Source of the DNA: Calditrichota bacterium
GTDB taxonomy: Bacteria > Zhuqueibacterota > JdFR-76 > BMS3Abin05
Direction: 5' to 3'
NCBI GenBank assembly: GCA_013151735.1
Contig: JAADHR010000049.1
Coordinates: 1-58,431, forward strand
DNA: 58,431 nucleotides
In this document: positions 4,884 to 12,587 of the stretch, one piece after another
Layout: the number at the start of each line of letters is the position of its first letter
Position numbering within the stretch: position 1 is the stretch's first letter
Notes under the pieces: generated by a model
Databases searched by the model: none
The model's input: the letters and a program-made list of their open reading frames with translations, nothing else
Told to the model about the DNA's origin: nothing
Translations under genes and position numbers: made by a program

Positions 4884-5112
4884 ATTCTAAAGAAAAAAAT
4901 AATAAGATTAGATTTCATTTTATATAGTATATAATATAGTTTTTCAAAAAAGCACAGCACGATTCAATTAATTTCTGCTGGTACGGGTCTGCCTAACAGG
5001 CTTTTGTTATGCAAATATATTAAAGGGTGCCTCATTCCCCGCCAAAACACAGCGGGAACATTCCCAGAACTCGCAGCGGCAGATTAAATTAAAATAAATC
5101 ATGGAGGATCCT

Positions 5113-7674
5113 ATGAAAACAATCAAAATTTGGGGCATGGCCGTGTTTGTCATGCTCATTTTTAGTTATGGCGTATTGGCATCCGAACATCCCAAAATTC
5201 CTCTTCTGGATGAGCAGGGGAATAATGTGATTGAAATGGCCAAAAAGCAGGGACAGAAGTTGGTGCTTAACGGAGTTACCTATTACAAAGGGGCTCCATA
5301 CAGCTCCGAGCAAACCTGCGGCGCCTGCCACGATGTAAAGGCCATTACAAAGGCGTACCATTTTCAAATAGGGGCAACTGAGGTCAGTGATGACTGGGGT
5401 GAAAAGCATCCTCAATATCACGACAAATACTTGACCTCCCCCGGTCAGTATGGCTTCTGGTGACCGCCCTCCTATCGCCAGTTGGCGAGAAAACACAATA
5501 CTTCTCAATTAACCTTCGATATTGGCACACCTGAAGAGGTTTTTACCTGCGCCTCGTGTCATCCGGGGGGTGGCCCCTATGAATACGATCGCAATGGCAA
5601 GCGTCTGGATCAAACGAATCCGAACAAAGTGCCCCCATTAGACGGAGATTATTACAGCTACACCACAAAAGAGACGTCTCAGGGAACCTGGGGAAAGCCC
5701 CACAAATTTGACTGGCGAAAAACGGGTTCTCTTGAAGTGGATTGTATGATTTGCCATTTGGATCCGGATGCCAAACGTATCTCGGATGCGACTGGCGTAA
5801 AACCGATGGCATACAATCCTCGGATCCGAATCTTTGCCAAACGAAAACTGGGAAAAGTTACGGCTGTTTCTCTGGGAATTTACCCTGGCCCGGGCTGGCA
5901 ATCAGCTTTCACGTACTCCGATCCCCTGTCGCGCAGTAAAATCACATTTGAAAAGGACAAATATTATGTCGATTTGGACAATCCCATGGCGGATGCCCGA
6001 AATTATATGCGCGCGCCCTATGTGGAAGGTCAGGGGTTTAATTACGTTGGGTTAAGGGCAAAACGCCAGTTCTTGGGCCATTATTTCCGGTGGGCGCCCT
6101 CTGCAGGTCTGATGGGCTGGGATAATAATCAGGATGGTTACCCGATTACCTATCTGAAATTGGTCAAACACAAGGGTAAATTTGTTCCGGAAGTCTATTA
6201 TGAGGCCAGTGAATTTGATAATGACAATGAAATATCGGTTCCGATGCTGAGTTCAAAAGAGACAGAAAACGGCCAAAATAAATGGACGCGCGTGTGTGCC
6301 CAGTGTCATGTGGGTGTGAAAGACCCGATTAATGGAAGTTTTCAGGTGCGAACCTGGGGTATGGGCATGAAAGCCGATATTGTGAAGCGCGGAGAAATCT
6401 GGAATCTAAATCCTCAATCGGAAAAGGATCCCGGATACGACGTTCATGGCGCTGCCGGACTGGAATGCACCAGCTGCCATGCCCGAACGAAGCCAGACTC
6501 GGTAGAATGGGATGATTATGTGGTCAATCCTGATCACAACTTTCTTAAAGGCAATGATTCCGGTAATGCCGTTCGCAATGATCTGGATAACCACCCGTCC
6601 CCGAAAAATTGTACCTATTGTCACATTCAGGAAGAAGTCGGTCCCAATCCTCATGAAGCGCATGCCAAAGTTTTCGGGAGTTCGGCCTGGGTGCATATGA
6701 ATAAGATTGCCTGTGAAACCTGTCATATACCTCATGTGCGCTATTGGACGTTTCGGTCCTTTGATTACAGCCTCGGATTTCAATTCGATTACGATAACCG
6801 CCATTTTCCAAAACCGGATGGCGGAATGATGAACGTTATGCTTCCACCCTATTATGGGCCGATTCCCTTTTATGGAATGGGCAATATCAATTGGTTGGTC
6901 GGGCATCGGGATACGGATGCGTTTGCAACGGACAAATTGGCTCCTGTCGCATATATGATTCCCGGGCAGCCGAATGATCTCTATGGAATGATGTATCAGA
7001 AAATGACGGGACAAAAGGGTTTTGATTGGGAACCGGTGCTTTATTATTGGAAAGGAACCCATGGCAACCAAATCATGATCGGTAATCCCATTACGGTTAC
7101 AACCTGGTTTGATAAGACGATGGAGAAAATCCTTTATCCGCGTGAAATGAATGCTGCGGTGCGAGGTATTTTCCGGGATAAAAGTGGCCGCAGTTACGCG
7201 CAACTTATTACGAATGACCGCATTTATGACAAAACCGGTTTTATGGGACATCCGGATATGAGACCGGAGGTGAGTACGCTGGATGATATCCGGAAGGTAA
7301 GAAAAGCCCTTATTGTTGTTTTGAAGAAGGAGGGCGAAAAGAACCCGAATCCGGTGCTGTATATTGCGGCGCACTATTTTAAGGTGTCTCACAATGTATT
7401 GCCGGCCGATCAGGCACTGGGGGCGAACGGTACCTGTACCGCCTGCCATGGCAAGAATGGACGGGTTGAAGATCGGATTATTACATTCACTCCCAATAGT
7501 ATACAAGGATTCAATCAGGGGGTGAAAGAAGGATTGATTAAGATCGATCCGGAAATCAGTTATGTAAAACCGGTTGATCTGGATAAAGATGGGAAGCCCG
7601 ATGTTCTGGGTGCATCTGAAAAGAGCATTCTCAAAGTTACGAAAGAACATCTGGAACGCGAATCTGAGAAATAG
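5113..7674 (+). CDS. Exported octahaem cytochrome c with in-frame TGA; candidate selenoprotein
   Basis: The frame from ATG 5113 (GGAGGA just upstream) to TAA 7674 is 853 codons and is broken only by TGA at 5461-5463. Residues 1-23 form a Sec signal. Eight CXXCH haem sites start at about residues 69, 146, 211, 395, 452, 500, 534 and 775, one before and seven after the TGA. Residue 117 (the TGA) sits in FW-x-PPSYRQLA. The segment after the TGA continues in the same frame, with no SD-led restart: the first possible start, TTG 5482, has no ribosome binding site. TGA ends other genes here, so it is not recoded as Trp. Eleven bases after it a hairpin with a GU-containing loop resembles a bacterial SECIS. 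The likely role is periplasmic or surface electron transfer or reduction. The alternatives are a point nonsense mutation or a sequencing error. Confidence 0.75.
5475..5488 (+). promoter_or_regulatory. Candidate bacterial SECIS hairpin
   Basis: TCGCC (5475-5479) pairs with GGCGA (5484-5488) around the loop AGTT. Exactly 11 nt separate the TGA from the stem, the spacing known for the minimal E. coli fdhF SECIS. The apical loop presents G-U, as SelB requires. A bulged U below the upper stem can be drawn (U5473, with C5472 pairing G5489) but is not certain. Confidence 0.5.
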
Positions 7675-7700: not shown

Positions 7701-7733
7701 AAAAAGCCCCTTTTTACAAAAAGGGGCTTTTTT
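7701..7733 (+). terminator. Strong rho-independent terminator
   Basis: AAAAAGCCCCTTTTT pairs with AAAAGGGGCTTTTT around ACA and ends in a T run. It lies 26 bases after the cytochrome stop, so the cytochrome is probably transcribed alone. Confidence 0.85.
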
Positions 7734-11246: not shown

Positions 11247-11256
11247 ATTGGTACTT

Positions 11257-12587
11257 ATGAAAAAAGTAATTATAGCGATTGGTTTTATTTTTGTGATGTC
11301 TCAAATGGCAATGGGAACCGTTCGGAGTAGTACCCTTTCGCAAAAGGAGCTTGACCGGGCGGCAACCAAGGTTTACAAAACGGCTCTGGATCAAATGAAA
11401 ACGGGCAATTACTGGAAGGCCGCCCAGAACCTGATTGTCATTACCGATTACTACAGCGATTATAAAAATCTTGATGCGGTTTTGTACAATCTGGGAACCT
11501 GCCTTTTCCATCTTGAACTTTACAATGCTGCTGAAAAAATTTATGTCTATTTGATTAAAAATTATTTGGATTCCCCTTATGTGGCAAATGCCGTCTATGG
11601 CCTGGAACGGGTCTACTATACAGATCGGATGTATAACAAAGCGTTGACCTATTTTCAAGTCATTACGGAAAAATTTCCCACCATGAATGAAATGGATGGG
11701 GCGTATTACTATGCTGGACAAAGCTATTTTTATCTGAATGATTATACGCAATCCATTCTTACGCTAAAACGGGTCTCTTCCAAAAGCTCATTCAGGGGGT
11801 ATGCCCTTTATACCATGGGGCTTGGCTATCTAAAAAAAAAAATATCGATAAGGCCATTGAGTCATTCGAATATATCCTGAATTTACCCAAAATTTATACG
11901 GATATAAATGCTTTACGGGAACGAGTCCGGTTGGTTATTGGTCTAACCTATTTTGAATTGAAAGACTATTCGCGGTCCATTCGTTTTTTGAAAAAAGTTT
12001 CACCGAGAAGTGCAGAATATGGAAAGGCTTTGTTGGGGTTGGCTTGGGGATATATAAAATCCAAAGAATACCAAAATGCAGTTCCGCCTCTTGAGATCTT
12101 TTTAAAGAGATATCCCCATAGTGAATATATACCAGAAGTTTATCTGTTATTGGGACAGGCCAATTTAAAACTTCACCTTTATGACAAGTCTATCTTCTAT
12201 TTTAATAAAATATTGGAACGATTTCCGAATAACAAAAAAAATGAGCAGGAAATCCGGTCAATAGCCGAAAATATTGATAAAGAACAGAAACAGATAAAAA
12301 ATATTCAGGTCAATTTGTTGCTTTTGGAGACGCGTCTGTTAAATACCATACAATTGACGACGCCCAAAAAGTATATTCCAAAATTTATGTTTGAAGAAAA
12401 AAAGAAGTTGGAGAAAAAGCGCCGCCTGTTATTGCGGGAGATTATTTTAGAGAGAAATGAATACAGAAACCTACAAGATCAAATTCAGCAATTGAAGTTG
12501 GTCTATGAAAAGAGAGATAAGGACTGGCGCAGTTATGCAGAATATGGTATTTCTAGAGCCCTCTATTTGAAAGAACGGGAGCAATAA
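11257..12587 (+). CDS. Periplasmic TPR protein, frame interrupted at an 11-A run
   Basis: Two open frames make one protein of about 440 residues. The first runs from ATG 11257 with a signal peptide (MKKVIIAIGFIFVMSQMAMG) and YfiO/BamD-like tetratricopeptide repeats (YYSDYKNLDAVLYNLGTCLF, YNKALTYFQVITEKFP). It enters a wrong frame after the A run at 11832-11842 and stops at 11880. In the -1 frame the same bases read NIDKAIESFEYILNLPKIY and continue into further repeats to 12587. Adding one A (12 A) restores a continuous protein. The C-terminal third is a long charged coiled coil. Explanations are assembly error, RNA polymerase slippage or a phase-variable switch. It lies 2 bp before the next TPR gene and shares its style. 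Confidence 0.75.
11832..11842 (+). other. Homopolymer of 11 A at the frameshift point of the TPR gene
   Basis: Eleven consecutive A lie exactly where the reading frame of the TPR gene has to shift. Runs of nine or more A are known to allow RNA polymerase slippage in bacteria, and they are also common sites of indel errors. Confidence 0.8.

Follow-up and report, generated by a model that had tools for sequence, protein, structure and literature searches.

A conserved selenocysteine-containing octahaem cytochrome c family related to octahaem tetrathionate reductase

The gene at 5113–7674 in the window, which is the whole 58,431-nucleotide stretch of DNA analysed here, belongs to a conserved selenoprotein family that is related to octahaem tetrathionate reductase (OTR) and is apparently undescribed in the literature searched. 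The encoded octahaem cytochrome c is predicted to be exported to the periplasm as a soluble protein and to contain selenocysteine (Sec) at residue 117. Taken as a whole, the explanation set out below, namely Sec at residue 117, an OTR-type fold and a catalytic site at haem 2, has in our estimate a probability of about three in four. A fuller version is quite possible and is offered tentatively: Sec would sit at a catalytic c-haem, as an Fe–Se ligand or as a selenenyl-forming nucleophile, in a widespread, apparently undescribed family in which Sec, Cys and Tyr have been exchanged and one branch of which is tied to arsenic.

A reading frame with an in-frame TGA codon

Translation of the forward strand with the TGA read through produced 853 residues with a single in-frame TGA and a terminal TAG (Table 1). 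The frame includes eight CxxCH motifs, one on the 5′ side of the TGA and seven on the 3′ side, and the protein has approximately 12 kDa per haem. The original prediction had described an octahaem cytochrome encoded in one 853-codon frame with TGA at codon 117, a signal peptide and one haem site before the TGA and seven haem sites after it, and re-translation returned the same frame, motifs and division. It had also held that TGA is a stop codon here and that no ribosome binding site is available for a restart. Five of the 29 open reading frames of more than 250 aa in the window do terminate in TGA, and the first listed start past codon 117, a TTG at 5482, falls inside the hairpin and has no ribosome binding site.

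Table 1. Features of the octahaem cytochrome gene and its surroundings in the window
Feature	Position	Strand	Basis
Octahaem c-type cytochrome selenoprotein gene, 853 codons and TAG	5113..7674	+	Translation; orthologue (74% identity) in same-genus genome G002 has the TGA as well
Shine-Dalgarno-like GGAGG before ATG 5113	5103..5107	+	Direct reading
Predicted signal peptide, residues ~1–23	5113..5181	+	Translation; hydrophobic segment
Haem site 1, CGACH, codons 69–73	5317..5331	+	Translation
In-frame TGA, read as selenocysteine 117	5461..5463	+	Sec/Cys/Tyr column in relatives
SECIS hairpin UCGCC-AGUU-GGCGA, 11 nt after TGA	5475..5488	+	Folding and comparison across relatives
Haem site 2, CASCH then PGGGP, codon 146; proposed catalytic haem	5548..5562	+	Translation; relatives; OTR match
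Haem site 3, CMICH, codon 211	5743..5757	+	Translation
Haem site 4, CAQCH, codon 395	6295..6309	+	Translation
Lys425, aligned to OTR Lys153	6385..6387	+	Alignment of relatives; L094 K248 versus OTR
Haem site 5, CTSCH, codon 452	6466..6480	+	Translation
Haem site 6, CTYCH, codon 500	6610..6624	+	Translation
Haem site 7, CETCH, codon 534	6712..6726	+	Translation
Haem site 8, CTACH, codon 775	7435..7449	+	Translation
Intrinsic-terminator-like hairpin with T tail, 3′ of gene	7708..7726	+	Sequence

That the TGA is a true stop or a mutation, leaving a pseudogene, a sequencing error or two polypeptides made by restart, is scarcely credible. Genetic code table 11 reads TGA as the end of translation and the TTG at 5482 could serve as a start, but that restart would lack a ribosome binding site, the TGA recurs at this codon in 33 genes from different phyla, other relatives have Cys in the column of residue 117, and the SECIS hairpin is conserved among the Sec genes. 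The protein is also conserved over its full length, with purifying selection seen both 5′ and 3′ of the TGA. Sequencing error is excluded, since a congeneric species (74% identity) and relatives in many phyla have a TGA at this codon too. Restart, sequencing error and pseudogene were therefore rejected on the conserved TGA, the purifying selection and the TTG without a ribosome binding site.

Distribution and variation at residue 117

A scan of GTDB genomes detected 264 relatives, and the best 79 of the 264 loci were kept. The family ranges over the Thermodesulfobacteriota, Bacillota, Chloroflexota, Nitrospirota, Aquificota and other phyla. Among 86 distinct octahaem relatives, counted with L074 and L051 (the same record) taken once and with rows left unclassified by the script read by eye, column 117 was occupied by Sec in 33, by Cys in 39, by Tyr in nine, by Thr in two and by Phe or Gln in three, a tally in which the proportion of Sec is biased upwards because loci were retained by similarity to a query that itself carries Sec, a bias that does not extend to the exchange of Sec and Cys. 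An alignment of homologues at residue 117, proposed in the original prediction, thus places Sec (33) or Cys (39) in this column. Tyr was found in L076, L078, L080, L082, L084, L085, L087, L106 and L108, in a clade that is mostly Acidobacteriota/Gemmatimonadota and has kept haem 2.

Within the phylum of the window genome (82 genomes), a TGA at the same place was present in the same-genus genome (74% identity) and in two further genomes from more distant families, and Cys was found at this column in six. In a sample of 395 genomes from the phylum of Desulfoluna, a relative was detected at E ≤ 1e-60 in 53, and exactly one TGA was present in most of the highest-scoring ones. One in-frame TAA was reported in each of four relatives from that phylum (G426, G176, G366 and G345). 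A tblastn search of plasmids found no match. In a quick tree with long branches flagged, built without the residue-117 segment, the nine states require 11 changes, and at least three are unavoidable for Sec given the well-supported branches. On this tree the window protein is divergent, with a branch of 2.6.

The SECIS hairpin and the selenocysteine machinery

When the geometry of the hairpin was re-derived, it lay exactly 11 nt past the TGA, as had been predicted. For a single sequence its energy is modest (z about -1.5 to -1.8), and resampling the synonymous codons of the window gene gave the hairpin geometry in 9 of 5000 draws. A search of Rfam for a SECIS-type match returned only sub-threshold hits, at the terminator hairpin. 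As the plain energy test is weak, comparative codon use was taken as the test instead.

The Arg-Gln-Leu-Ala that follows the Sec is spelt CGCCAGTTGGCG (CGC CAG TTG GCG) in 23 of 24 Sec genes and CGT CAG TTG GCG in the remaining one; the mean use of CGC, CAG, TTG and GCG in the same genes is 32%, 78%, 16% and 25%, respectively. The 11 non-Sec (Cys or Tyr) genes that encode these four residues use eleven different spellings, none of them CGCCAGTTGGCG (0/11; Fisher 3e-8 for Sec versus non-Sec genes). The AGUU loop is invariant in 23 aligned elements, and in two stem pairs U-A has become C-G through changes on both sides, the same-genus species showing one of the two. In family members with a two-residue insertion the hairpin lies approximately 6 nt further downstream. 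The description of the element as SECIS-like is therefore borne out by base-level conservation across phyla in the relatives' genes, and in our view this conservation of the bases, rather than of the amino acids, decides the case for Sec insertion.

The genome (3.95 Mb, 95% complete) encodes the machinery that the original prediction had named. SelB scored 342 bits (cut-off 242) and its gene is immediately preceded by selA; a tRNA-Sec (selC) with anticodon UCA scored 72 bits against a cut-off of 47. Two selD genes were above the cut-off, and one contains an in-frame TGA in a VSCAGU motif, which we take to be the standard Sec site of SelD. The two selD loci are L069 (G000:C80) and L068 (G000:C137), one with a TGA and a hairpin after it, the other within a 742-aa open frame. 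With selA, selB, tRNA-Sec and selD all present, Sec decoding is supported for this organism independently of the cytochrome. Across the family, SelB exceeded the cut-off in 22 of 25 genomes that carry the Sec form and in 17 of 33 that carry other forms (p 0.003, uncorrected for kinship). The three Sec-form genomes without a SelB over the cut-off (L111, L114 and L126) are metagenome-assembled, and the gene can simply be missing from such assemblies.

Insertion of Sec at codon 117 is thus practically certain, and the proposal of a candidate selenoprotein is upheld by the machinery, the Sec/Cys column and the base-level conservation of the SECIS. We infer, with very high confidence, that SelB and Sec-tRNA-Sec would be recruited by the hairpin 11 nt past the UGA.

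Relationship to octahaem tetrathionate reductase

Searches of Pfam and NCBIfam gave only general multihaem matches for the window protein. The best NCBIfam match was TIGR04315 (OTR) with 41.4 bits, which is far under the curated cut-off of 375 and leaves the family outside that model, and a phmmer search of the PDB with the window protein alone found no match. Comparison of structures and of family alignments reached further. The model of the relative L094 (pLDDT 91.8) had as its sole significant PDB fold match the OTR structure 1SP3 (prob 1.00, E 4.9e-6), with 552 aligned columns and a TM-score of 0.45 (target length). The model of the window protein itself is weaker (pLDDT 66), yet has the same top fold match. 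When the family alignment was compared with that of TIGR04315 using hhalign, the two matched across haems 3 to 7 with 99.2% probability (E 6e-20).

Lys425 is nearly invariant in the alignment of relatives, and its equivalent in L094, K248, is invariant in that protein's alignment. Both K248 and K425 were placed by hhalign on an OTR Lys that is K153 in 1SP3, presumably the residue that gives active-site haem 2 its unusual distal ligation. The title of Mowat et al. 2004, as cited in PMC5146829, mentions novel haem ligation. On this evidence the window family very probably belongs to the OTR superfamily.

Sec also occurs in true OTRs. A search of the 395 genomes from the phylum of Desulfoluna with TIGR04315 recovered many above-cut-off OTRs with one in-frame TGA. 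In the 29 that were read, 12 have Sec and 17 have Cys at a position 10 residues N-terminal to the leading Cys of the haem 2 motif, which, counted from Cys74, is Cys64 of 1SP3. The Sec OTRs carry a hairpin of their own that overlaps the haem 2 codons. The Sec-bearing true OTRs of Desulfobacterota are L155, L159, L160, L166, L167 and L170, together with L172, L174, L177, L179, L180 and L181.

Position and possible role of Sec117

In both the window family and OTR, a glycine-rich segment of the form CHxGxG comes after haem 2. The segment between haems 1 and 2 has no significant alignment to OTR beyond a short CxxCHxGxG match, so the equation of Sec117 with Cys64 rests on order and context. Sec117 likely corresponds to OTR Cys64, next to the catalytic haem 2. 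In the heptahaem relatives L055, L057–L060, L062 and L064, haem 2 and the Sec/Cys are both gone, with Asn or Ser in most; the three of these included in the tree form one clade and their joint loss counts as a single event.

Membership of the OTR superfamily, the aligned Lys and the TGA found at OTR Cys64 together suggest that Sec117 is the catalytic chalcogen at haem 2, a role that we consider probable. Catalysis also appears more likely than pure electron transfer. Cytochromes with a 'peptide replete' mass per haem were termed catalytic in PMC7096707, and the approximately 12 kDa of the window protein is within that range. In the mechanism we propose, Sec117 would occupy the Cys64 position beside haem 2, with Lys425 as the equivalent of Lys153, and its selenolate would attack a small oxidised substrate at a chalcogen–chalcogen (e.g. 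S–S) or metalloid centre, or bind the substrate at the haem 2 iron. The selenenyl adduct would then be reduced by electrons arriving via the haem chain. Alternatively, the selenolate might itself ligate that iron. The suggestion in the original prediction, that a selenol among the haems might serve as a haem ligand or redox site, is thus plausible.

A different role, in which Sec117 is a permanent axial Fe–Se ligand of haem 2 or a relay in a cytochrome that transfers electrons and has no substrate, seems unlikely. The three commonest states of column 117, Sec, Cys and Tyr, are all able to ligate haem iron, and in the alignment only six conserved His outside the CxxCH motifs and two Lys are available for the eight haems. 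Moreover, His/Cys haem ligation is rare and important in sulfur-based metabolism, as in TsdA (PMC5146829). However, the high protein mass per haem points to catalysis, and the column also holds Thr, Phe and Gln. Lys425 is, in addition, already aligned with the Lys that we take to be the distal ligand of haem 2 in OTR. The replacement of Sec/Cys by Tyr, Thr, Phe or Gln in some relatives does mean that a chalcogen is not essential to every member of the family.

Electron supply, genetic context and possible substrates

Most relatives have C-terminal membrane helices, and in L051, L081, L092, L098 and L110 a cytochrome b domain (PF01292 or formate dehydrogenase gamma type) was found there, implying quinol as the donor. 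Most of the membrane-anchored relatives would probably take electrons from quinol through the fused cytochrome b. In the window protein and its same-genus orthologue there is no cytochrome b anchor and the signal peptide is the sole membrane segment, so the window protein must rely on a donor or partner that is soluble.

The cytochrome gene stands alone in both the window genome and the same-genus genome. Its flanks look ordinary (peptidase, patatin-like, PTS IIA-like and aldehyde dehydrogenase genes, named by eye from their sequences), and no hint of a substrate was seen in these flanking genes. Elsewhere in the window, a TPR-repeat gene at 11248–12587 changes frame at a run of 11 A (11832–11842), and the same gene is broken at a run of 10 A in the same-genus genome (L048, reverse strand, ~14937). 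From the two sequences, this looks like conserved slippage, either transcriptional or ribosomal.

A sulfur oxyanion or polysulfide is our first choice of substrate and is possible rather than probable; an arsenical, the second choice, is about half as likely, and some other compound is as likely as the first. It is doubtful that the enzyme acts on arsenic, for instance by using quinol to reduce arsenicals in oxidised or methylated form while Sec binds As. The genes of the related Cys/Sec clade with GGxW[C/U]SPAP adjoin those for an ArsP-type permease, ArsR, an SBF/ACR3-like transporter and DsbD-like proteins at up to 20 loci, which suggests arsenic chemistry for the GGxW branch. No arsenic-type neighbours were seen for the window gene and the GK[WF]U clade, however, and the association may mark one subfamily only. 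Neighbourhoods of the arsenic type (ArsP_1, ArsR, SBF/ACR3-like, DsbD) include those of L049, L050, L109, L110, L113 and L147, amongst others.

Comparison with known systems

The literature search found no paper that describes the window family as a selenoprotein, only a table row for the OTR model TIGR04315. That row is in a 2026 inventory covering 119 families of prokaryotic selenoproteins, most of the characterised ones being thioredoxin-like, in which only two entries, ExtKL and OTR, are named multihaem cytochromes (PMC13188914). The OTR entry, 'Tetrathionate reductase family octaheme c-type cytochrome' (TIGR04315, WP_331457571.1), is GenBank-annotated and not discussed further, so some precedent for Sec exists within the OTR superfamily. 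Members of the window family would be split or truncated by gene callers that end a frame at TGA. As the family includes cultured species, with members in Fundidesulfovibrio agrisoli, Desulfoluna limicola and Ammonifex thiophilus, the chemistry of Sec with haem becomes testable, and nature already offers Sec, Cys and Tyr variants of a single position for comparison.

The original prediction had suggested a relative of Geobacter ExtKL, and this is highly improbable. ExtKL is likewise a multihaem c-type cytochrome with an in-frame TGA read as Sec, but it is pentahaem and its TGA lies between the pentahaem ExtK and the small ExtL (PMC6148476, PMC5877670), whereas the window protein has eight haems, with the Sec between haems 1 and 2. 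A search of NCBIfam with the window protein gave no match to NF040886 (ExtKL) at E ≤ 1, leaving kinship unsupported at profile level, and the ext operon is absent around the window gene.

The MtrC/MtrF domain II/IV (PF22113) and cytochrome c7 (PF14522) models match window residues 387–546, with haems 4–7, above the gathering score, and the likeness is limited to this part. The OmcA/MtrC decahaem model (TIGR03507) was not among the matches of the window protein at E ≤ 1, and ten haems are expected there rather than eight. The thiosulfate dehydrogenase/tetrathionate reductase TsdA is a dihaem protein from a different family. The comparison with it is one of possible working only, TsdA having a chalcogen residue (Cys) at a catalytic His/Cys c-haem (PMC5146829) and the window protein having Sec.

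The closest counterpart is OTR (TIGR04315; Shewanella oneidensis 1SP3), which shares with the window family eight haems in the order 3+4+1, the conserved Lys after haem 4 and a Sec/Cys between haems 1 and 2. The window family differs in that its Sec is 29 residues before haem 2 rather than 10, it has its own SECIS and a different N-terminal segment, and many of its members are fused to cytochrome b.
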